This document shows positions 2,726 to 52,530 of a stretch of DNA of 64,000 bases, in pieces. Each line of letters starts with the position of its first letter. The first letter of the stretch is position 1. Source of the DNA: Amphirosellinia nigrospora (lineage: Eukaryota > Ascomycota > Sordariomycetes > Xylariales > Xylariaceae); NCBI GenBank assembly GCA_004123355.1, contig SCHM01000002.1:2604001-2668000 (forward strand), given 5' to 3'. The notes beneath the pieces are model-generated. The model was not told where the DNA came from. It made no database searches and saw only the letters and a list, made by a program, of their open reading frames with translations. A program made the translations under genes and the position numbers.

Positions 2726-4517
2726 GGCGGAAGTAGGATTAATGGAAGGTGACGAAGGATAATCGGGAGAGCTACGAGGTATGGTCAGCGCCGACGCTAC
2801 GTGGTTGAAGGCGCAAGAAGAGACGGGCAGATATAGAGGAAGTCGATGGTGGGGTTGCAGCAGGCAGAACTAACAGAAGTAAATGGAATAATCGAGCCGC
2901 GCTGACGTGGTCTGTCTGCGATCGTGAAAAAAGTTGGGTTTGGCCAGGCGGTGGTCGTACTAAGTAAGGGCAGATGAGGGAAAGAGAGAGGTTCAGGTTG
3001 GTTGAAGACTAGGTTAAAGGTTAGATACCTGACAGGCTGGGAGGCGGGATGTGTGTGGTGGGACGCTTGTCGCAATGGAGGGGAAGATGGTCGGACTTGG
3101 GCGAGAAAAAAAGTGACGTCCTGGGCCAGCAAATGTACTTATACACACTGTGTCAAGGACGGCAGTCTCCAAGCCCTCGGGGCATATGGCAGGCTTCGAC
3201 AGTACATACAGTACGTTACCTAGGTACCTACCTACCTGGTAGGTAGCTACTTACAGTAGGTAACCACCATAGGGGCCACCCGCAACCCTCCAAGGCAGAC
3301 ATCGTACTGTATACTGTACACGGAAAGCGGTGCACAACGGAGTGACGAGTCGGCGGGGCTTAGCTGTTGGCCGTGAGATACCGTGCCAGGCTGGTTAGCT
3401 TGGCGGGCGAGGGGTAATCATGGCCTGACGCGAGTGTACATACATACCCTATCTAATGCACTGTACAACATACGTACATGCAGGTTGCTTGAAGTTCACT
3501 CGGGACCATTGTTATTAGCACTGCCTAACATTTTCACATCCAATAAGAATAGCGATATCTTTGGAGGCCTAACAAATAGACAAATACATACCCAAAGAAT
3601 TAAAAATAAACAAAACAAGGTATTAGATACTTAACACAGTAGCTACATAAAGAAAAAACAACCAGATAAAGGGCAGCTTCAAATAACTTAGACCCACCAA
3701 GCAGGACAATAGCGCAAAGGTACCTACTTAGGTTAAGGTAGGTATGAAACTTCTTTCTTCATGAGTAACATGTAAATAGAAGCAATCCTAGAAAATCCAC
3801 GAGGAATGCCAGGCATACATGTCACAGCCGATTTGTAATCTGGCGCGAAGATGAGCAAACGCTCTTACTATCCTTCCCTTCACCCACTAAAACTAAGTAT
3901 TGACAAGTTAGTGTTTGTCATCTTGAACGATCTGATTAGGGAAAGCAAGTTAGAGGTAGCAAAGTTCAACACTAAAGAATGAAACGCCATAATTAGTGAC
4001 CTACTTAAACCGACATAGCTTCTAGCAACACTTAGATATAATTTTACTAGATGATAGAAAGCTTTAGGGCATAATGTACCAAGCCATCGTAAGGTAGCTG
4101 ACTGCCTCCCTCACAAGGGAAGAAATCAAAGCAGCATTGTGTATTATGAGCCCACCACAGGTTAGGCGTGAGAACCATTGCGTCACCTGACGTAGCATCC
4201 CGACCACTGCAGCAAATGGATGTAGCGTCTAGAAAAGGCAACAGTGTTTCGGTGTACCGAATCACTTAATAGTAATAGATTCATTAATGACATGCCTAGG
4301 CATCACTCGAATGGTCAAGATACGCGCATACGTAGCCATAAGTCATTAGTTTGAACATGATCTTTTTCTCGTTATCGTACAACCTCGTTGACAACGCCGC
4401 TCGGGATATCAGTAGGAGTAGTATGAACAATCAATATACACATGGTTGGTGTGGAGGGGAGAGGAAGAGATTACATGGACACATCAGACAACAAAATCCG
4501 TACCCCAAACACCAGAT
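2726..4517. other. Intergenic region upstream of cofilin, downstream of hsp60
   Basis: About 1.8 kb without a supportable gene. The first 400 bp (GA/CT-biased) probably hold the cofilin promoter and leader. TAGGTA/ACCTACC repeats occur at 3215-3264 and 3718-3746. Short open frames here lack any recognisable domain. Confidence 0.5.
3215..3264. repeat. TAGGTACCTA-type short repeat cluster
   Basis: Overlapping copies of ACCTAGGTACCTACCTACC, followed by GGTAGGTAGC and CAGTAGGTAACC. The unit is a self-complementary TAGGTACCTA core with ACCT/AGGT extensions. Similar clusters lie at 3718-3746, 6837-6864, 39451-39480, 39937-39957 and 40061-40115, always between genes. Confidence 0.7.
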
Positions 4518-6482
<1,965 letters not shown>

Positions 6483-7373: not shown

Positions 7374-8512
7374 ATGTCGACTATTGCCAAAACCATCGTC
7401 GCGACCGGCGCAAGCTCCGGTATCGTAAGCCACCATAGCACCGTAGTCTACCTTTCATCACAAGCAATTCACTAACATCGTGTAGGGTTTTGAGGCCATC
7501 AAGCAATTGCTAGTCCAATCGCAGCCTTACAACTTCATTCTTGGCGCCCGAGATGTCAAGACGACGACAGATGCCTATAATGGGCTCAAATACAACAGCA
7601 GGCACACGCTCACCATCTTGCCGCTCCAGCTGAACAACAGTGCGTAATTCTCGGAACCGTCTTCTTCTTGTTTCGGTAACTGTCAAAGCACGAGACTTCC
7701 TTTTGGGGGGCAAGAGGGTGTCTGGGGGCTGACCAAACCCTCATCAATGAGCTCCAAGTAGCCATAACTGACTCCGAACGCTGCAGTGAACTCCGTGAAG
7801 TCCTTCGCCAAACAGACCCTCGAGAAGTTGGGTGGAAGCACAGTCGACTACCTCATGCTCAATGCAGCAACCGGCATGATTAAGGCCAACAGTGGGCCGC
7901 ACGGCTCAAAATGGATTGAGCCTATCTAGTCAATCATCTCTCACAGCATTACCTGCTCCATTTGTTACGGCCTAAGCTGGAACAGTCTAAGACTCGGATT
8001 GTCGTTGTCTCGTCCGGAGCCGTAACAATGGTGAAGGATACCAGTAAGTGTACCCCAAGACAGTCAATATCACTAGCAGGGCTAACACAGTTTATTGCAG
8101 ACACTCTTGAGAATGAAATGTTAGCTGCGCAAAAGACAGGCACCAGCGTCTACTCTGCTACTAAGTTCATCCAACTCCTCGGTGCCCACTGGTGGCGTCG
8201 TCAACTCCAGGGGACCTGCCTAGTTGTGGCCGTATCTCCTGGGCTAGTTCCGAATACGGGTCTTGGCAGGGGCAGTGATGTAAAAATCCCCGACAACATT
8301 CCTGATGCTAAAAGTATACCTGAGGGTGGGCAGAGTGTTCTTAGGGCATTTACTCGAGATGATATCCCGAGGACCCAGATCAGATCTTCCTCACTAGCTG
8401 GGGAGAGTGGTGGCCCAAGAACGTCTATGAGCTGACGCTCAACAAGAGTCTCCAAGACAAATGGTCACCAAGCCAGGAAGATATTGAGAAAGAAGAGGGT
8501 GTTAGCGTTTAA
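7374..8512 (+). CDS. Short-chain dehydrogenase/reductase (NAD(P)-binding Rossmann fold)
   Basis: Four exons: 7374-7424, 7486-7639, 7787-8043 and 8101-8512. The start MSTIAKTIVATGASSGIGF holds the cofactor-binding TGxxxGIG motif, completed across intron 1. Further SDR marks are DYLMLNAATG (the NNAG-like motif), IVVVSSGAV and the catalytic YxxxK as YSATK in exon 4, followed by VVAVSPGLVP. The class reduces or oxidises small carbonyls or alcohols; the substrate is unknown. The frame is shifted by one base near 7918-7923 and again near 8366-8372, where single bases appear to be lost. Beyond both sites the protein continues normally (VNHLSQHYL; QDKWSPSQEDIEKEEG), so decay is recent or a sequencing artefact. 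Intron 2 is unusual and listed separately. Confidence 0.82.
7640..7786 (+). mobile_element. Introner-like element, copy A (intron 2 of the SDR gene)
   Basis: 147 bp intron, GTGCGT...CTGCAG, roughly 2-3 times longer than the other introns of this gene (57 and 61 bp). It shares ordered blocks with the 145 bp intron at 18437-18581 in an unrelated gene: TCTCGGAAC, TTCTTCTT, AGCACGA, TTTTGGG, AAACCCTCAT and ATAACTGACTCCGA just before the acceptor. TCGGA near the 5' end can pair with TCCGA near the 3' end. TAACTGAC is the probable branch site. The homology covers the whole intron and stops at the exon borders, which is how introner-like elements of fungi behave. Confidence 0.72.
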
Positions 8513-17508: not shown

Positions 17509-18878
17509 ATGGTGGTCAGGGCAGTCTCGCAGCCTCGCGTCGGTGCTGCCCTACTCCTGACCAGCGTCCTCTTCACCGCGTTCTCCTCAGCATCAGTCAC
17601 CAGCCAGTTCCAGCATTTCTACGGCCAGCACGGCTCCAAGTACGAGTATATCCTGCACCACAACTGCAGCCAGCAATACGCGAACTACCTCACCGGGCGG
17701 CCGAAGGACTTTCCGGCCGACTGGCTCGGCGGCAGCGGCAGGACCACCGTGCTCGTGGAGCCCGTCGTCAAATGCCTCCTCGAGAACGTGTCCGAATACA
17801 TCAAGGCGGCCGCCTCGTCGGCGCAGGTCATCCTCGGCGTCACCCCGCCGCTCCTGGCCTCGCTAGGCGTGAGCGCCGACGAGCTGGCCATGCTGAGCGT
17901 GGTCGGCCGCCGACCGCTGCTGTCGCTCCTGATCTCCTTTGGGAACCTGAGCGTATATATGGAGAGGCGTTTGTCTTCCACCCGCCGAAGAAGATGCTGC
18001 AGCGTAGCCGAGGCCGATATCCTCTCCACAAGCTGAAATCGACATTCAATGGGCGGATACTGTCCGCATTCCAATATGCTATCGCACTGGGAGCGGCTCT
18101 GAATGTCACTGTTTTAAGTTGGCAGCTGGGGCTTAGAACAGGTACTTATCAAACTTGAAAGCTGCCTGCCCATGGCCTATCTGCTAATGGTGCATAGTGT
18201 GTTCTTGGTGGTCAAACACAGTGTTCGGGCCTCTTATCTGGACGATACTCAGTGTCCCTCTACACCTTGCGGGCGCCTTCGCGATACGGCTTCGCGTGCG
18301 AAGGATATACAGCGACGAAGAAAACGACGTGAACATGACTTTCAGAGAATGGCTCCGACTGCTTCCTATCAAGCTTCGAGAGTTTTGGAATACCGAGTGG
18401 GTGCCGGCCTTGTGGCAGGAAGAGGTTAGGATCAAAGTGAGCAACTCTCGGAACTGTTTTCTTCTTTTTGCCAACTTTTAGAGCACGAAGTTTCTCTTTT
18501 GGGCCAGGGAGTGGCTATATAAGCTTCTGAAACCCTCATACACGAGCGCTTGATGGCGATAACTGACTCCGATTGTTGTAGTCCTTTGAAGAAGGCGCAA
18601 TATACGTTGCATGGTCGTGGCTACTCTCAACCGCAATAGTTATTCACATCCTATTCGGGTCGCTGGTGCTCTCCGGTCTTCTCTTCATCGGACCGCGGGA
18701 CGCGCTGTTCGTGATTTTCAGATATGTGATCTCTATCTTGGCATGCCGGATTCTCGTCACGTTCGAGCTCGCTGGTATGAGAGCTCGGTATTCACCAGAG
18801 CTTGAGCCAATATTGTTAAGGGAGATCATAAAGCCGCCCACTAAATATATAAGGAAAAGGCGAAGTACACTTGATTGA
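17509..18878 (+). CDS. Conserved fungal membrane protein of unknown function
   Basis: Three exons: 17509-18141, 18198-18436 and 18582-18878. A signal-like start (VGAALLLTSVLFTAFSSASV) is followed by a lumenal or extracellular part (HHNCSQQYANYLTGRPKDF) and hydrophobic stretches AQVILGVTPPLLASLGV, LLSLLISFGNLSV, ILSAFQYAIALGAALNVTVL, VFGPLIWTILSVPLHLAGAF, LLSTAIVIHILFGSLVL and VIFRYVISILACRILV, so about five or six spans. The basic end KPPTKYIRKRRSTLD is typical of a cytosolic tail. I recall similar Pezizomycotina proteins (LVEPVVKCLLENVSEYI) only as uncharacterised. A one-base loss near 17953-17963 shifts the frame between GNLSVY and GEAFVFHPPKK. Intron 2 is an introner-like element. Codon use is GC-rich in exon 1 and less so afterwards. 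Confidence 0.7.
18437..18581 (+). mobile_element. Introner-like element, copy B (intron 2 of the membrane-protein gene)
   Basis: 145 bp intron, GTGAGC...TTGTAG, against 55 bp for intron 1 of the same gene. It matches the SDR intron at 7640-7786 from donor to acceptor: 25 of the first 30 bases agree, and AAACCCTCAT and ATAACTGACTCCGA are identical. The two host genes share no protein similarity, so gene duplication does not explain the match. Confidence 0.72.
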
Positions 18879-38534: not shown

Positions 38535-39450
38535 CTTGGGAGATGTCAAAGATCAAGTAGTAAGAGTCGTCTGTCTGCTGTTGAGAACGGTAAGAATCTG
38601 CTGTTCCAGAAAACGGATGCTCAAAAAGCGTACAAAAAGCTGAATAAGTAGTAGTGCGGGTGTTGGTGAAGAGGCTGTGATGCTGAGAGAAGATGGCAAT
38701 GCAGTTGATTGATTGGAATCTGCTGATGCGGGAATGTTGTGGGTAAAAGAGGAGAAGAAGAGTAGGGGACGGGAACGTGGGAGAAAAGGGCATCGAAACG
38801 TGGGTTTGATTGTGTGCTGCATCAAAGATAGAGAGAGAAGGTGCGAAGTGTTGGTGAACCCGTAGGTGGGAAGTTGCATGTATGAAGGAAGGTGCACAAT
38901 GCTGGGCTCTTGGTGTCCTTGTATATGCAAACTTCTTGGATGCCACCAACATGACAGGCTGGTGACGGGGTGCTATGTAAAGAATGCTAATAGCTCACCT
39001 AGGTAGGAAGAACGTGGAAAGGAATCTAAAAACGTAGGCAAGTTAATATGCAGGACTTTCAGGTAGAAACTGTGCAGAGGTGGCTTTGCCAGAAGTTAAG
39101 AGGGCGATAAAGGTATGGGTAGCGGAGTGGAAATGTGCCCAGAGACAACAGCGCAGTTAAGAACTTGGAAGTAAAGTAGGTACCTAAAGGGAGGAGTGAC
39201 AGGATATGTGGATATGGGAGAAAGAGTCTTGAGCAGTTGAAGTAGGCAGGAAGGCACGGTTATAAGCCTCAGGTAGTTTCATGGGAAGGTGTGTGATAGA
39301 AGGCAGAAGGGTTGGCCAATATGAGCTGTGATGCAGATGGGGGAAGGTTTAACACTATGTGTTCCCAGAGAGAGATTGTGATGATGTCAAGCTTACCACC
39401 TTCCAGTCACTTGTGTAAGTATGCAAAGGTGTAGGTATGCTATATTGGTG

Positions 39451-39480
39451 CTAGGAGGTAGGTAGGTAGGTAGTAGGTAT
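39451..39480. repeat. GGTA tandem repeat of the TAGGTA family
   Basis: CTAGGAGGTAGGTAGGTAGG followed by TAGTAGGTAT: four GGTA/GGTAG units in a row, directly before a GATA run (39494-39507). Confidence 0.75.
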
Positions 39481-40060
39481 TGTGTTTGTGCGTAGATAGA
39501 TAGATAGACGGGACAGTGAGTATTCCGCATCGAGCATCCGAATAACGTTCATAGTTTAAGCAATTTCGTACCTTGAGGCTATAACCGAGATGAACCCAGC
39601 CAACAACTTCTTTGATATAAGTCTGAGACTAATGGAAAAGGCAGTAATCTAAGACACAGTTCCTTTTGTGCTTTGCTGTGCGAGGGGACGGGATGATGCA
39701 GTGTGAAGAGATGATAGAATTGCCCGGATGCGATCAGCTTTGCCGAGGAAGTTGCATGTACCTGGATACAGATAGGTTGGTGGAAGACAAACTGAGGCTG
39801 CACGTGTATGGGAGGGAGTTGCACACATTAAATACATAATGTAAGTTTTGGGAAATCCCGTGTAAATGGGACCAAGCTCTGTTGTTGTTGTTGCTGTCAC
39901 ACAAGCTTCGTCATAGTGATTGGCTTCTCATTGGTACCTAACCTACCTACCTCCTAGCACATAGCATTTCCACACGTCACATCACTCAGCTGGTACCAGT
40001 TCATTGGGACATGCCTGGGTCCAAACAACTTTTCTTTGGTACAATAAGGAATAAAGCCCG

Positions 40061-41832: not shown

Positions 41833-41908
41833 ACGTACCACACACCATCCTGGCCACACAACCATCCTGGCCACTTTTCCTAACTTTCGTACGACTATTA
41901 TTTTTTCT
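41833..41908 (+). repeat. Left terminal inverted repeat of the pogo-like transposon
   Basis: Starts ACGTACCACACACCATCC and contains two tandem copies of ACCATCCTGGCCAC, then CTTTCGTACGA near 41885. It pairs with the right end over about 75 bp with C/T differences. Confidence 0.8.
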
Positions 41909-43140
41909 TTTATATTTTAATAACTAATAATAGTACTATCGTACAAAGAAAAAATTTGCAGCTTGTTTTACGGGCTATAGAACGTAACGAAAATTTAACT
42001 TTTTAGCGCGCTATAAAATCTATAATGTTTTTTGTACGACTTTTATTACTTGCTAGGCCGGAATTTTTTTAAAGCTTTAAATACGTTTATTAAAATGCCG
42101 ATTATTAGAATTTAAAAAAAAATTAATCGTACGATATATATTTAACCTAAATTTATAAAGATTTTTGTTTAAATTAAATAATATTAAAAATATAGCTAAT
42201 TAATTACTATACGAACGTAATATATTATTTGTTAAAGTTAACTAAGCTTTAAACTTCGTACGATAATTATTTAATTTTCGAACGCGTTTTAACTACCGAA
42301 TCGATTATTAGCAAGTTTTATATAAAATTTTAATAAATATTAAAAATAGTTTAAGCTTATATAAAACGTAATTATAGCTAAAAATATTTATAAAATAATA
42401 TTTATAATTTTAACGAAATAAAGTTTATAATAAACTAAATATCGTTTAAAATAGTTATATATTATACGAACGTTATAAACGATTAAAAGCTATTTAATAA
42501 AATAATCGAAAATAAATAACTATTATTTACGCTATTTTATTATATAACTATTTTATTTTATTATATATTATTTTAGCTAGGTTAATTTATTTATTATTTT
42601 AGTATAAAATAATTATTTATTAACCGATTAAAAAATTAAAATAATAAAAAATAACTAAACTATAAACGAAAAAAGTTTAAATTAAATTAAATATTTCGAT
42701 TATTATATAACGTATTATATAAAAAGTTTTTATTGCTTTTTAATTTTAAACGGCTATAAAAGTTATTATTTTATTAAATTTAAATCGTACGCTAAAAAAT
42801 ATAAAATTATTATTTTTTATATGCTTGCTTATTTATTATATAAACTTTAGCTTTTAAATATTAGTTATTTTAGTTTTTTAAAACGGTTATATAGTAAATA
42901 AATCGATAAATTAGCCTAAGTTTATATTATTTATATTAAAAAAAAAATTTTTTACGTTATTTTATATTATATATAACGTTATAATAATACTAGAAAATAT
43001 TAAAAAAAACTTTTAAAAAGCTAGTTTTATTTTATACGATTTAAAGTATATTATTTTATAATTTTTGCTTAAAAATTTAACTAAAATATTTTTAAAGTTG
43101 TCCGATAAACTTTAGATTTAAAAGTTATAAATATTTTTAG

Positions 43141-43354
43141 TAAGCTTTATTAAGGATAGTGTAGTATTGAGTTTGTATTGAGTGATAAAAAAGGAAGCAA
43201 GTATTAGGTAAGGCTTTTGTTAGAAGTAGGAGATTTATTTAGTCCTTAGCTTTTTTATTTAATCTATAGGACTAGACTTTATTTATTAGTAGAGTAGGCT
43301 TTACTTTGCAGTGGGACCCTTTGCAAGGGTTACCCCTTTTGTTAGAATATAATA
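43141..43354. repeat. Left LTR
   Basis: 214 bp direct repeat of 51777-51989, sharing blocks such as GACTAGACT, TTATTAGTAGAGTAGGCT and GTTAGA near its right end. The exact left border is uncertain by about 20 bp. Confidence 0.8.
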
Positions 43355-46300
43355 AGTGCTGGCTTTAAAAAAGAGACTATTATTACTTTTAATAATTTAG
43401 CATTATATTTAAGCTAATATATAATATTAAGGTATTTATTAATATAAATTTATTATTTTAATTTAACTATTTTTATAGCGAAGTTTATTTTTTGGAGGTA
43501 ACTATAGGGTTGTTTATTAAGCTAAGCTATAGTAGTTATAGCTTTTTTTTTTTTTTTCGATTTTAGGTTTATTATTTATTCGAAACTAATATTTTTTAAT
43601 TAAATTTTTAGAGTTTTTTAATTATTATTTCGATTTTTATTAGTTATTTTTATAATTATAGCTTTTTTATTTTATTAAGTATTAAAAGCTAATATAATTA
43701 TAGTTTAATTAATACTATAAAATAGTTTTTATTTTAAAAAAATTATTGTTTTTTTTAGAATTAGGTTAATTATTAAGAATTAAACTAAAAAAGGAGATTT
43801 GTCGGTAAAAAAATCTTTATTATTTTGTTTAAAAAATAAATAAATAATAAAAATAATAAAGTATATTTTAAAAGTTTTAGGAAAATCTAGTTTATAAATA
43901 AAATGTTTAATTTAACTTTTAACTTTTTAAAAATTAGTACGTTATTAGGAGAATTTTTTAGAAAGTTTATTTAAAAAATAATAATTATAATATAGCTGTA
44001 AGTATATTTTATTTTTTTTTTAAATTTTATTAGCTTATATTTTTAGTTATAATATTGTTTAGCTTTTAAAATAAAATCTATGGCTAATTTAATATTTTTA
44101 CGTAAATGCTCGTATATAAAACGTAAATTTTATATTTAGTAGTATCGATTTTTATTAATATATCGTTAGGTTTAAAAAATCGGAAATAAATAGTTGTTTA
44201 TAGGGAAAATTTAATAAGATCTAAATAAGTATTATTAAAATTTTATTATAAAGATAAAAATAAGTTAATTTAATTATTTTTAAAGTATTTAAAATTATAG
44301 TATTAAATAATAATTTTACGGTTTAGTTTTTTTGTTTAAAAAGATTATTTTTTTAAAAGTAATAAATAGTAGTTATAAAAAGCTTAGTTTTTATACTTTT
44401 TATAAACTTTTCTAAAAGTCCAAAATAAATTTATAATTTTAATCTAAAATAATATTAATAAATAATTTTTAATCGTTTAATAATAATTATATAATTAATA
44501 TAGCTGCTTAATTTTCGTAATATACTTTTTATTACTTAAAATAAATAAAGTTTTTTTAAAATAGTATACGTTATAAGTATAATATATTATAATAGTTATA
44601 ACTTTTAATTTATTAAAGTATATTTGCCGAAAAATTTTAAGTAAACTAATAATAAAATTAAGCAAATAGTTTTTATAGCTAGTATTTTTAAAGCAAATAA
44701 GCTAATAGTTATTATAAAGTTTTTATAATTAATAGCGCACGTTTTATAATTATTATAATATTTAATATAAGCTATCGTTTTATGCGTTTTTAAATAAATA
44801 ATATAAAGTTTAATTTTTTTATATATTTATATACCGAAAATATTATTATTATAAACTATTTATATAAACTTATATACTTGCTTATTAAAGATATATAGTT
44901 TATATTTGCTTTTTTTATTTATATTATAAAATAAATTTTTAATAATTATAAATAAATAGCCGGTATAAAAACATTTTATTAATAATTTATTATTTTTATA
45001 AATAGCGCGTATATATATAGCAATATTTAGGGTTTTTATTATAGTTAGCAATAATTTTAGCTTTTATTATTTTATTAAATATAGTTTTAAAACTATTTTT
45101 ATAGCAAATTTAGCTAATTAAATTTAGTTTAAAATAAGTTTTTTATCCGATCGTTTAATTTAACTATTATTATTTATTTAATTAAATATAGTATAAAGTT
45201 AATTTAGTATATTAAAAATAAAATTTAATTTATTAAACAAATAATATATTTATAATTTATATTGGATAAATAAATAAAAATATTAATAAAACGTTTGTTA
45301 GCCCGATTAATAAACGCTATATTAAACTTAATTTAATTTAAAATATTTTTAGTTGTAAAGTGGTTAGTTAGTATTATAATAAAGTTTTATAGTTTTGATA
45401 TAGTACGTAATTTTTTATATATTTATATTATATATATAACTTTTAATCGGAAGTTTATAGCGTAGTTTAATATTCGTAAAGTAATAATTTAAAAATATAA
45501 CTAGCAATATTTAAATATTCGGGATAAATATATTAGGATTTTATTAGTAGTTTTTATTTAAATAGAAAACTATAATACTAAAGCTTTTTTTTAAAGATTT
45601 ATTTATTTATATAAATAATTGCTAAGCTAGATAGTAATAAAAAAAATATAATTATAAATTAAATTTTATATAGTTTTGAACGAAAGTTTTTTTTTTCGGT
45701 TAATTTATAGTAAATAAATTAATAATAAGCTTATTGCTTTTTAAGGTTGTTTATAAATATGCGACTTAATTTATATTTTTTTATAAATAATTTTATTTTT
45801 TAACGCTATAAAAGTTTTATATACTTATATAGTATAAAAAAGTTACGTAAAAATTTATTATTACTGAAATATTATTTTAACGCTTTAAACTAGTTTAAAA
45901 ACTTTAAATTTTAAAAAGTAGCTAATTATTTAATAATAATTAAATAGCTAAAAATGTTTATTTAAAAACTTAATAAATTAATAAAAAATAAACGAAAAAA
46001 ACTTTTTAAAAATAATAAAATATAATAAAAATAAAATATTTTAAAAATAGTATAAATAAATAAAGCTTTTTAATAGTATCCGAAAAAATAATAATATTAT
46101 TAATAAATATACGATAGAATTTTTTAAAAATTAAAGTTTTTTATTTATAAAGTATTATTTAAATATTAGCGAATTATAAAAGTTTATTAAAATAATTATT
46201 AATTATTTAATTTTTTAATAGCTAATTATTATAAAATTATAATAGTCTAGATAAACGTTAAATTAATAAAAAAAAAAAGCATATTTATTATTATTTTATA

Positions 46301-49300
46301 AAGTTTGCTATAAATAAATTTAATAATTTTAAATTATAATAAAAGCGAATAATTATTTAAAACTGTTATTTTATTTAAAACGTACAAGTTAACTATTAGT
46401 TACGAATAAGGTTGTTTTTTTTTTAAGTTTATACGATAAAAATAAAATATAAAAAAGGTTAAACTATTAATTTATTTTATATAACTTTAGTTATATAGCT
46501 TATTAAATATAATATTAATTATTTTTAGTTATAAAAATAATAAATATAAGTAACTATTTAGCTTTGTTTTTTGCTAATTATTTATTAAAATTTTTATTAA
46601 TTTATTAATAAATATATTAATAATTTTTTAGTTAGTTTAAATTTTAAGTATATTATTAATTAGTTTAAAAATATTAATAGTTTTTAAATTATTTTTAATA
46701 TAAATCGATTATTTATTAAATATAATTATTTTTTTAATTTTAGTTAATTTATAAATGCTAAAAGTTAAAATAATACTAAAAATTTTAAGTTTTTATTTAT
46801 TATTGAATATTTTTTTAGAATTTATTTTATATTATATTTTTAATTATAAAATATTATATATATAAATGCTTTTTTTTTATAAATATATTATATTTTTTAA
46901 TATATTAATAATATTAGCTATATTAGTTAAAATTATTATATATTTTTTTTTAAATAGTTAAATATATTCTAGTAGCAATTATTTTAAACGTAAAAGTTAT
47001 TAAGAAGCTTTTATTAATGTTAAAAATAATATTTTTAGATCGGCTAAGACTTATATTCCGGTATTAATAATTTTATTATTAGTAAAATTAGTATTTATTA
47101 ATTAAAAAGCGCTTATATTTAGGTTTAATTTTTTAATTATAGCTATAGTTATAGCTATTATTATAGTTTTTAAACTTTTTTATATTATAGTTTAAAATTA
47201 ATATTAGTTTATTTAAAAATAAATTTAATATAAATATTTTTTAATATTATTTTTTTTTTAGCGAAAGGTTGTTATAATTATTATTAGCAGTATAATAAAT
47301 TTAATAATAATAGCTATTTTATTTTTATATAAAAATTTAAAAGCAAAATCTCGATTAAATAGCAAAAATATATAAATAGCTAGTATTTTAATAGTATATT
47401 TAGTTTAAATAATATATTTTTAAATAAAGTTATTTTATATATATAGTTATAAAAAAATATACTTTAAAAATATTTTATAATTATTTATACTAGTAAATAT
47501 TATTTGCCGATTTTTATAATTATATACTTTTTATAAGCTAAAAAATTATTATTTAGTAATATTTTAAGCTTAATATTATTTTTAAATATTTATATAAATT
47601 TAATAACTATTATTAAAATAAAAAAACTATTAGCGTTTTTTTTATAATATAATAAAAAAATAATTAATGTTTATATTATATTTTTTTTTTTTAATACTTT
47701 TAACCTTATTTTATAACGTATAATAATATATTTTAAAATATTTAAAAACTTATACGTAATAATATTACGTTGCTTTAAAATTAAAACAAATAATAATATT
47801 TTTATTATTTTATTAGGCATAAATATTAACTTTTAAATATAAAAAATAGTTATTAAAAATTTTTTATATTATTATTTATTTCGTATAGCTTAAAAAACGT
47901 TTATATAATTATTAGTAAAATCGGGGTTAATTTAGCTTAATTATTTTAAATATATTTTTTATTATAAATATATTATTTCGTTTAAATAGTTATATAAAAT
48001 TTTTAGCTGTATAAAACTTAAAATAATAAAATAATATATTTATAATAAAAATAAAATAGCGTAATATAAATATATTTGTTTATTTTTTATATAAAAAATT
48101 AAAATATAATTTGCTTAATCGCTATATATTATATATATAAGTATAGTTTTATATATATATATAATTAAATATTTTATTATAATATTTATAAATATTATTA
48201 TAGTTTATTATAATAAATATATTATTATTATTTTAATTTATAAATCGAATAAATAAGTATAAAAAAATCGTTTTTATTTTTATTAGTAAAGTTAATATTA
48301 TTTTTTTTTTTTAGGCAAAATTAGCGTATTTTTTTTTATATTTTTTTTTGTTTATTTGTAGTTATAACTAAACTTTATTTATAACTTTTTTTTTTTTAAG
48401 CTAGTAGTTTAACGTTTTCGATTTTTTCGTGTTTTACGTTTGCTAAATTAGTTATTTTGTTTAAAACTACGTTTAAGTTTATTATATTTTTAATATAGTT
48501 TATTTTTAAATATTTTTTATAAATAGCTGCTAAAAAATTAGCTTTGCTTTTACGATTTAAAATATATAGTTTATTAATTTTATAATAAACTTAAATATTA
48601 ATAAAATTATTTAATGTTAAGTTTATATAAGTTTAAATAAAAACTATATATTATATTAATTGTGGTTATTTTTATTTAACGTTTTTATTATTTAAATATA
48701 TTATAATTTCTGCTAGATAAAAATAATTATAGCTATTTATTATAAATAAAATATTTTAGCTTAAAATATAATTAATTAAATAATTTTATAGCTTAAAAAG
48801 CTTATATAGCGAACTTATTAATAAAGCTATTAATAATTATAATTAATTTTTTTTATATATATTAGTTCGTTTTAAAACTATTAGTTATTATTTTATTATA
48901 TAAAACTAGTTTTAATAAAATATTTAAAATATAAATAATTATTTTTATTAGTTTTTATTATTTTTTTTTTTTAAAAATAAATTAATATATTTAATAAAAA
49001 AATATATTTATAAAAATTAGCTTATTGCTATATAATTATTATATTTTTATTATTAAGATTATTTTATTTTAGGTCGAACTAATTAACGTTTGTTTTTTTA
49101 GCTTCGTTAGTTTATTATATTATAAAATATTAATAGATTTTTTTCGAATATTAATTTATTATATTTTTATTTAATTTTATAAGGTTTATATTAAAATCTT
49201 ATAGATTATATAGCAATATATATTTAAATAGTTTATACGGTTAGTATAAAGTTTATCTAACATTGTTAGGTTGTTTTAGTTCGCTAGTATTATTATCGTA

Positions 49301-51776
49301 TTATTATTATTATTAGGATTTTATAAAAACGCTTTAATAAATTCTAAGTATAATTAAATATTAAGCATTAAAAGCTATTTATCCCCGAGCTTTATTAAAT
49401 TATTAATATAATAAAGAATTTATTTAGTTTTTTTATTAAACTATTTAAAAAGCTAAAATTAAAGATTTTTTATTAATTATTAAACTATAAATTAAACTAT
49501 ATATTAAAGCTTTATATTAGCTATTTTTCGGGTAAAAGTTTTAAAATACTAAAAAGTATAAAAGTATTAAATATATATTTTTTATAAGTTATATAAACTA
49601 CGTTTAAATATAAAAATTTTTTAAATATTTATATAAAAGTTAATATTTATATTTTTAGTTAGCTTAATATATATTGCTACTTTTAATACTATATAAATTA
49701 CTAGCGCTATATATACTAAAGTTATTAAATTATTATAAAATATATATTGCTTAAAACGTTAAAATTTAATTAATATATATTTAATAAAAATACCGGTTAA
49801 TATATAAATAAAGCAATAAAAATAATAATTTATATAAAATTAATATATTAAAAATTATTAGCTTAAAATTATAATTACTTTTGCTATAATAATATCACTA
49901 AATTATTTTAATACTATAATTTTTTTATTAACTATAGTATATTTTAATATTAATTATTAATATTATAATTTAAAAATTTATAAGTTATATATTATATTAT
50001 TATAATAGCTAATATATTTATAAACAACGCGCTATATATTTTATCGAACTTTTATATAATAATATATAACGTTTATAAATAATAATTGTTTATATATTTA
50101 TAAAATATTTAATATATATAACTAAAATTTATTAATTTAAAGCTTAATTTTAGTTTTTAATTTTATTATTTTTTATTAATTGTTTTTATTTATTAGCTAA
50201 TTTTGCTAAAATAGCTTCGATATTTTTAACTTTTTAGTATATATTAGTAATATATTTAAAAAGCTTAGCTATATTTTTTTATAAAGCTAATTAAATAATA
50301 AAACTATTAAAATAGTTATTTTATTTTTTAAATTTTTTTAAATATAGTTCTAAGTTTTTTATTATTATTAAACTTTTTAAAAATAGTTTTAAATTATTAA
50401 AATCTAATTCTAATTAGTTAAACTATATAAGTTTTTAATTTATTGTTTTAAAATTTTAAATATATTAAAACTAAAAAAAAATAGCTTAAAAGTTAATATA
50501 AATAGTTATATTTTATATTTTTTTAATATATAAATAATTAAATAGTTTATATTAAAAATAAACAATAATTTTATTATTATAAGAAGTTTTAATAATAAGC
50601 TAAAATTTAATAATAATATAAGTCCGGACGCTATAGTTTAACGTAGCGTAGCTAAAAATAATATTGCTTTTTTTTACTTTTTAGCTAAAACTATTATAAA
50701 TCGATTAATAAATAGCTATAATAAATATCGGAATTAAATAATATAATATTAAACTAGCTTTAATTAGTTTAAATATTAAATTCTTTATTATAGCTAATAT
50801 TTATATTTAATTATAAAGTTTTTTAGCTTTTAAATTAAGCTATCGATTTTTTTAAGCTTTATTTTAATAATATTTGCTTTAAATTTTAAATAAACTTTAA
50901 ATATAACGCGCGAAATAGCTAACTAAAAAAAACCTATAAAAAATAATATAATTAACCGATATATTATAACTATTTAAAATAAACATAGCTTATAAATAAA
51001 ATAATTAAATACTATTTATTATTAGTTATTTTATAAATATATAAATTAATTAAATATTATAATTTATATTTTATACTAAAGAATAAATAAACTATAAAAT
51101 AACTTAAAATATAATACGAAATAAATAGTTTATTAATATTGCTAAAATTATTAAAATAATAAATAGCTTTTAAAAAAAAAAGAATTTTTAATTATTTTAT
51201 AAAAAGTTTTAAAAACAACTTATTAAACAAATAAAATATAATAATTTAAAATTATAAAATAATAATATATTATTATAAACGTTAGCTTTAGCTAGATATA
51301 ATTAGTATAAAAATAAAACTATTTTAAAAATAATATTAAAATATAAACTTAGCTATAATATAAATCGTAGCGTTAATATTAAACTAAAAACTAGTTAATT
51401 TAATATAAATTATTAAAAATTAATATTTTTTATTTTTTTAAAATATATAAAATATTAAAAACAATAATATATTTTTTTTAAAATAAATAAATATTAAAGT
51501 ATTTTAAACTTTTGCTACTTTATTAAAATATTAAATTAATATAAAATAACGTTAGAATAGCTTTTTTAAGCTTTTTTTATTTTATTAAAATATAAAATCG
51601 GTATAAAATAAAATCGGCGCAAAGTTTAAACGCTACTATAATATTAAAAGTATTAAAAATAATACGTAAAATTGCTAGGGCGGTCGGAAATAGCTATACA
51701 AATAAACTACCGGCCGAAAAAAAACAAAACTAAAATAACTTAAAAACAAAATTATAAAACTTACTACACTATTTAA

Positions 51777-51989
51777 TAAGCTTTATTAAAAATAGTATAA
51801 TATTAAGTTTATATTAAGTAATAAAAAAAAAAACAAGTACTAAGTAAAGCTTCTGCTAGAGGTAAAAGATTTACCTAGTCTTTAGCTTCCTTATTTAATC
51901 TATAAGACTAGACTCCACTTATTAGTAGAGTAGGCTCCATTCTATAGTGGGGACCCCTGCGGGGTCACCCCCCTTGTTAGAGTGTAGCA
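51777..51989. repeat. Right LTR
   Basis: 213 bp, the better preserved of the two copies: it still contains GTGGGGACCCCTGCGGGGTC, one of few GC-rich islands in the 10.7 kb AT-rich block. Ends ...GAGTGTAGCA. Confidence 0.8.
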
Positions 51990-52460
51990 ATTTTATAACG
52001 TAAAAAATACTAAATTATAAGCTTAATATATTAAATATAAGTTATATAATATTAAAATAGTTTTTTTATAACTGTTTTAAATATAATTAATTTAATCGTA
52101 AAAAAGATAAATATATTAAAATATTAAATTATACTATTTTAATCTAAAATAACCGAACTTTAAAAAATAAATTATAAACTAAACCGATATTATTATATAA
52201 AAAAAAACGGATTTAAATTAAAAAAATTTACTATATAAAAAAATAAGATTAAAAAACTAAAAAAGCTATTAAAAGCTAAATAAATAATAAAGTACGGTCG
52301 AGTAGTTATTGTACAAAAAAAAGTATTATAAATAAACAGTACTATAGGATTTATAGCGAGCTTAAATATAATGCGCGTATATATTAAACAAAGTAAAAAT
52401 ATCTAACGAAAGCGATTCCGATTAAATTTAATTAATTTTTTTATTATAGTTAAATTATTT

Positions 52461-52530
52461 TAATTGTTCGTACAAAAGTGCTAAAAAGTGGCTAGGATGG
52501 TTATATAGCCAGGATGGTTGTGTAGTACGT
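52461..52530 (-). repeat. Right terminal inverted repeat of the pogo-like transposon
   Basis: On the minus strand it reads ACGTACTACACAACCATCC, TGGCTATATAACCATCCTAG, then CCACTTTTTAGCACTTTTGT and ACGAAC. The doubled ACCATCCTRGC unit is kept. Confidence 0.8.

Follow-up and report, generated by a model that had tools for sequence, protein, structure and literature searches.

Two diverged introns in unrelated genes of Amphirosellinia nigrospora probably belong to one introner-like family

The origin of new introns is an open question. Self-copying introns are a known yet poorly understood source, and introner-like families are among the few sources that can be traced. A 64,000-nucleotide stretch of A. 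nigrospora DNA (hereafter the window) raises this question at two introns, intron A and intron B, which lie in unrelated genes and resemble each other. Are they copies of one element, and by which route could such an element have been copied? A sequence-only reading of the window had taken them for two members of an intron family that spreads in this genome, of the kind that multiplies as near-identical copies.

Two introns alike from donor to acceptor

Intron A occupies 7640..7786 of the forward strand (147 nt), interrupts a short-chain dehydrogenase (SDR) gene in phase 1 and runs from a GTGCGT donor to a CAG acceptor. Intron B occupies 18437..18581 of the same strand (145 nt), interrupts the gene of a predicted membrane protein in phase 0 and runs from a GTGAGC donor to a TAG acceptor. 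Both sets of coordinates and lengths had been read correctly from the sequence. When the two introns were aligned end to end with MAFFT, 97 of the 145 ungapped columns were identical, the 48 differences being 27 transitions and 21 transversions, with 2 gap columns. Twenty-five of the first 30 bases are the same (mismatches at 4, 6, 9, 19 and 22), and the blocks TTCTTCTT, AGCACGA, TTTTGGG, AAACCCTCAT and ATAACTGACTCCGA were all found in the same order in both introns. Identity by column peaks at the two ends, with 17/21 in each of the first and last 21 columns, and is lowest in columns 64-84 and 106-126 (11/21 each). Local alignments begin at the donor or one base upstream of it, where both sequences carry an adenine, and stop 9 bases before the acceptor; 5 of those final 9 bases agree.

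The local score of intron A against intron B was 62, and dinucleotide shuffles of A against B (n = 2000) gave a mean of 15.8 (sd 2.2) and a maximum of 29. The 100 bp flanks scored 13 and 12, which is noise level, and the exons have no sequence in common. Among 50,000 random non-overlapping pairs of GT..AG segments of 140-150 nt drawn from the window, none reached 62 and the highest score was 49. Comparison of 378 pairs among 28 predicted or hand-read introns placed the next real pair after A and B at 25; one score of 114, produced by two overlapping predictions of a single stretch, was set aside. When the window was compared with itself minus its AT-rich island, the pair was the top match (E 1.3e-5). 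Because the score stands above shuffles, other intron pairs and random GT..AG pairs while the flanks remain at noise, the similarity is real, covers the whole intron and is limited to the intron. The donor-to-acceptor alignment between an SDR gene and a membrane-protein gene with unrelated exons was thus borne out, and common descent of A and B as whole introns is strongly supported. The expectation of near-identical copies was not, since the two are identical at just 97 of 145 sites.

Introner-like elements had also been described as longer than normal introns. A and B fit this description in so far as 16 of the other 26 introns, predicted or read by hand, measure 49-77 nt; the remaining 10 are predictions of 94-397 nt, of which 8 exceed both A and B in length. 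This intron set consists of 25 introns from a crude, hand-tuned gene finder trained on open reading frames of the window and 3 added by hand, including B. The finder recovered A exactly and missed B; several of its long predictions are doubtful and one overlaps a hand-read intron.

Host genes, splice signals and insertion sites

The SDR gene that hosts intron A spans 7374..8435 of the forward strand, with a start picked by homology and an uncertain end taken from the open reading frame, and it also contains two ordinary introns on the same strand at 7425-7485 (61 nt) and 8044-8100 (57 nt). Once spliced, its N-terminal part hits Pfam adh_short (E 1.6e-7) and has 14 matches to solved structures (best E 1.4e-6). 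The 3 SDR alignments listed among these 14 matches are free of gaps at the junction left by intron A, so that the insertion apparently did not alter the length of the coding sequence. The predicted membrane-protein gene that hosts intron B spans 17509..18878 of the forward strand, with an uncertain start, and contains an ordinary intron, read by hand, at 18142-18197 of the same strand (56 nt). The part of this protein that was searched against Pfam gave no match; the case for B therefore rests on the reading frame and on homology to A.

The SDR gene has a single reading-frame change 3' of intron A, at about 7917-7930, and the membrane-protein gene shows an apparent frame change near 17943, or else a small intron was missed there. 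A mitochondrial Hsp60 gene on the reverse strand (4518-6160) has a frame change at about 5738-5744, with no space for an intron. These changes, less surely the one in the membrane-protein gene, suggest indel errors of the assembly or decayed genes. Compared with its best solved relative, the N-terminal Hsp60 part (5705-6160, reverse strand) differs in and beside the AGDGTT motif, and may be a decaying second copy instead of the working gene. The window also carries a HET-domain gene and VPS11; together with Hsp60 and an AT-rich island, these suit a filamentous ascomycete.

Excision of intron A joins LQLNN to NSVKSF in frame (phase 1), and excision of intron B joins EEVRIK to SFEEGA in frame (phase 0). 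In each intron a donor-like GTRNGY site occurs once, at base 1. A predicted branch point ACTGAC lies at 7767..7772 in A (CTGAC at intron position 129) and at 18562..18567 in B (CTGAC at intron position 127), both on the forward strand; A has a second CTGAC at intron position 90. Both introns (2/2) lie on the coding strand of their host gene. From frame and splice signals we infer that A and B are canonical spliceosomal introns.

The insertion sites bear on how the introns arrived. In the register that restores the reading frame, direct repeats at the intron edges are no longer than 1 base at either site, and neither site is AG|GY, the preference of introner-like elements that passages of PMC8469720 credit to van der Burgt et al. 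At the DNA level, no inverted repeat was found by self reverse-complement comparison, which scored 14 for A and 12 for B against shuffle means of 17.7 and 17.3. One explanation is a DNA-transposon introner, that is, a non-autonomous element with terminal inverted repeats whose target-site duplication supplies splice sites. A and B resemble such introners, as passages of PMC9860276 portray them, in that introns are gained through copies of one element in many genes. Shifted by one base from the intron register, A does have a direct repeat CAGTG (unit 146) and B a direct repeat AGT (unit 144), and TCGGA and TCCGA form a short inverted pair close to the intron ends. However, use of such repeats would cost the coding sequence one base at A, where the listed SDR alignments are gap-free, and an AGT repeat is expected for any exon that ends in A and resumes with T. 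No target-site duplication is thus compatible with the spliced frame; and instead of an extended DNA inverted repeat, with self reverse-complement scores below the shuffle means, there is only a short stem at the RNA level. In lacking terminal inverted repeats and a frame-compatible target duplication the pair differs from DNA-transposon introners, and this origin is very unlikely. The relevant passages of PMC9860276 place ascomycetes as an outlier without terminal inverted repeats or target duplication and report ascomycete introner families outside the DNA-transposon model; seamless insertion without target duplications is likewise the pattern given for published ascomycete introners in passages of PMC9860276 and PMC8469720.

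Introner-like copying suits the observed features better than the rivals considered. We conclude that A and B most likely belong, as two diverged members, to one introner-like family of a filamentous ascomycete; a route via intron RNA, suggested by the literature, appears to be the likeliest. Each would be a complete canonical intron that entered an exon of an unrelated gene in sense orientation, through a copying event that took in the stretch from GT to AG only. Copying may have proceeded through the excised intron RNA, by reverse splicing or by a repair-linked insertion into DNA.

Further copies, age and other repeats

A third copy within the 64 kb window was sought with nhmmer at full sensitivity, which gave nothing better than E 7.8, and with a covariance model, which gave none up to E 10. 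Single blocks of the pair were also counted in the window, A and B themselves included: TCTCGGAAC with at most 1 mismatch was found 12 times where 9.6 would be expected, with exact occurrences at 7649, 18446 and 22045, and TAACTGACTCCGA with at most 3 mismatches occurs 11 times against 14.2 expected (exact in A and B only). Exact patterns of A and B gave 0 matches in prokaryote genomes. In viral contigs the 3' block pair was found 0 times, the 5' block 3 times, the 3' end 0 times and the 5' end once. When scored with the model, which gives A and B 165-169 bits, three of the four viral loci (L001-L003) reached 8.0-8.4 bits, and the fourth (L004) had no model match up to E 10; all were taken as chance. 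At least one of three 10-11 base strings from the introns occurs in 73 published papers, of which the 15 listed look unrelated.

With two copies visible and no third found in the window, a single transfer of an intron between two genes by gene conversion, segmental copying or cDNA-mediated copying, with no family behind it, would account for the count, and since A and B share a strand and are separated by about 10.8 kb, a local event is possible. Against this, the flank scores of 13 and 12 leave no exonic homology to guide conversion, and fungal intron copying, to judge from the papers cited here, usually yields families. We give a lone transfer little probability.

Membership of one introner-like family can be set beside the introner-like elements of the Dothideomycetes Fulvia fulva, Dothistroma septosporum and Zymoseptoria, which passages of PMC4457414 and PMC3443670 describe. 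As in A and B, whole canonical introns longer than regular introns are repeated there in unrelated genes, and those elements likewise degenerate fast and are not canonical transposons. Unlike them, as far as families can be compared by description, A and B are two copies in one window that are about 67% identical. According to passages of PMC4457414, however, the identity of D. septosporum elements is far below that of active ones and such elements rapidly become indistinguishable from regular introns, so near-identity is not strictly defining for them.

The divergence of A and B, 48/145 or 33%, corresponds to about 0.44 substitutions per site (Jukes-Cantor). With so many sites differing, the pair is old or degenerate, or comes from two branches of the family, and it gives no sign of recent movement or current spread. 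Of the earlier proposal of a spreading intron family, common descent therefore stands and introner-like copying fits best, whereas the spread goes beyond the data, as 48 of 145 sites differ. In the proposed history the family would later have drifted, with mostly the ends kept. If the genome is assumed to be about 40 Mb and the window is taken as a fair sample, two copies would translate into hundreds of members; this is only a hint, because the pair was picked because it was noticed. Were the copy number high, presence and absence of copies between strains of the fungus would be measurable.

Other repeats of the window were also seen. Extreme A+T content marks an island of 10.6 kb at 41844-52518; within 41901-52460 its GC content is 13.5%, its TpA/ApT ratio 1.29 and its (CpA+TpG)/(ApC+GpT) ratio 0.25. 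Its edges carry 51-nt inverted repeats that are 82% complementary and contain ACCATCCTGGCCAC, and the island resembles a transposable element, flanked by terminal inverted repeats, that has been mutated by RIP. A second inverted repeat pair (39429-39472 and 39935-39975, 82% over 45 columns, E 0.002), about 460 bases apart, contains GTAGGTAGGTA-like units, and a 33-base near-palindrome at 3221-3253 is rich in ACCTACCT/AGGTAGGT.

A candidate near-terminal stem and relation to known intron families

The hairpin that the sequence-only reading had expected from TCGGA and TCCGA was found in part. A common stem is predicted between a 5' arm that starts at donor base 5 and a 3' arm of the 12 bases preceding the final AG. 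In A these are 7644..7655, which contains TCGGA, and 7773..7784, which has the TCCGA core and lies between branch point and acceptor; in B they are 18441..18452 and 18568..18579 (all forward strand). In alignment columns, 5-9 and 12-16 pair with 141-145 and 134-138, followed by 20-22 with 131-133. The TCGGA-TCCGA pairing has a probability of 0.91-1.00 in both introns, and this near-terminal element of the claim stands; global stability is ordinary, as whole-intron folding of A and B is no better than that of shuffles (z +0.46 and +0.33).

How far the stem can be trusted differs between the two introns. Standard pairs fill 25 of 26 cells, against 15-46% after a slide of 1-3 columns, a count that is favoured by the derivation of the structure from A and B themselves. 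Four pairs carry one-sided substitutions with pairing preserved, and a single cell does not pair. No stem pair has changed on both sides between A and B, so covariation gives no proof of the stem. The energy of a 20-base end duplex is -11.7 kcal/mol in A and -14.1 kcal/mol in B. All 26 other introns average -5.5 kcal/mol, and the 16 short ones average -4.7 with a best value of -8.5 kcal/mol. Among the 10 long predictions, however, values of -11.1, -12.4 and -13.8 kcal/mol occur, two of which go beyond that of A. When the ends were compared with their own shuffles (2000 each) at 25, 30 and 40 bases, the fraction of shuffles as good was 0.0095, 0.017 and 0.0355 for B and 0.0505, 0.095 and 0.458 for A. 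End pairing is therefore fair evidence for the stem in B and weak evidence in A.

Conserved internal blocks common to A and B would also suit a structured RNA carried within an intron, for instance a snoRNA, of which a duplicate came to lie in another host intron. The folding, no better than that of shuffles, argues against it, as does the homology of A and B itself, which takes in donor and branch point. Rfam models gave 0 matches at gathering score over the whole window, and at E up to 10 the segment 18300-18700 gave one weak match, located in the exon upstream of B. A duplicated structured RNA is accordingly highly improbable.

In an introner-like family copied through RNA, the near-terminal stem might keep both intron ends together and may shield the RNA after debranching. 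Introner-like elements are reported to fold stably, unlike A and B as wholes; symmetry or inverted repeats have been reported for them too, as cited in passages of PMC8469720. Another family with a candidate near-terminal stem would offer a testable feature, namely whether the stem decides which introns multiply.

A further comparison is with the sister stwintrons and cropped sister introns of Hypoxylaceae and Xylariaceae, which share with A and B a seamless insertion without target duplication according to passages of PMC8469720 and PMC12403724; the former source adds that stwintrons nevertheless show terminal symmetry. A and B are single canonical introns and lack the 45-55 nt symmetry of stwintrons. 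A diverged stwintron family like those would fit the stem layout, which is akin to the NTIRE layout in passages of PMC12403724, and internal YAG triplets (at 120 in A, at 43 and 69 in B), yet it is the least probable origin, as the GGT start is absent in both introns, the single GTRNGY site at base 1 leaves no internal second donor and one excision suffices to restore the frame.

It is also conceivable, if unlikely, that A and B belong to a plain, single-step introner family that shares the stem layout spelled out, among the papers found, for Xylariales stwintrons. If this were true, RNA-based intron copying in fungi, and not stwintrons alone, would generally require that the excised intron RNA keep its two ends together. 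Two points make this reading slightly less probable: longer ends of A pair weakly, and inverted repeats are reported for other introner-like elements (in passages of PMC8469720). The NTIRE stems described in passages of PMC12403724 agree with the stem of A and B in that pairing on the 5' side begins at donor base 5 and the 3' arm is placed after the branch point and before the acceptor. Compared with that description, the stem of A and B has two 5-pair runs, a 2x2 loop and a TCGGA/TCCGA core, and it lacks the 2-base spacer before the acceptor; NTIRE-10 stems are built mostly of A-U and G-U pairs in the same passages, unlike this core. The NTIRE stem is moreover described there as free of interference from the branch-point element, whereas the inner three pairs in A and B would occupy the branch-point A. 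In the consensus stem this A (column 132) pairs with the U at intron position 21 (7767-7784 and 18562-18579), and such pairing could compete with branch-site recognition.
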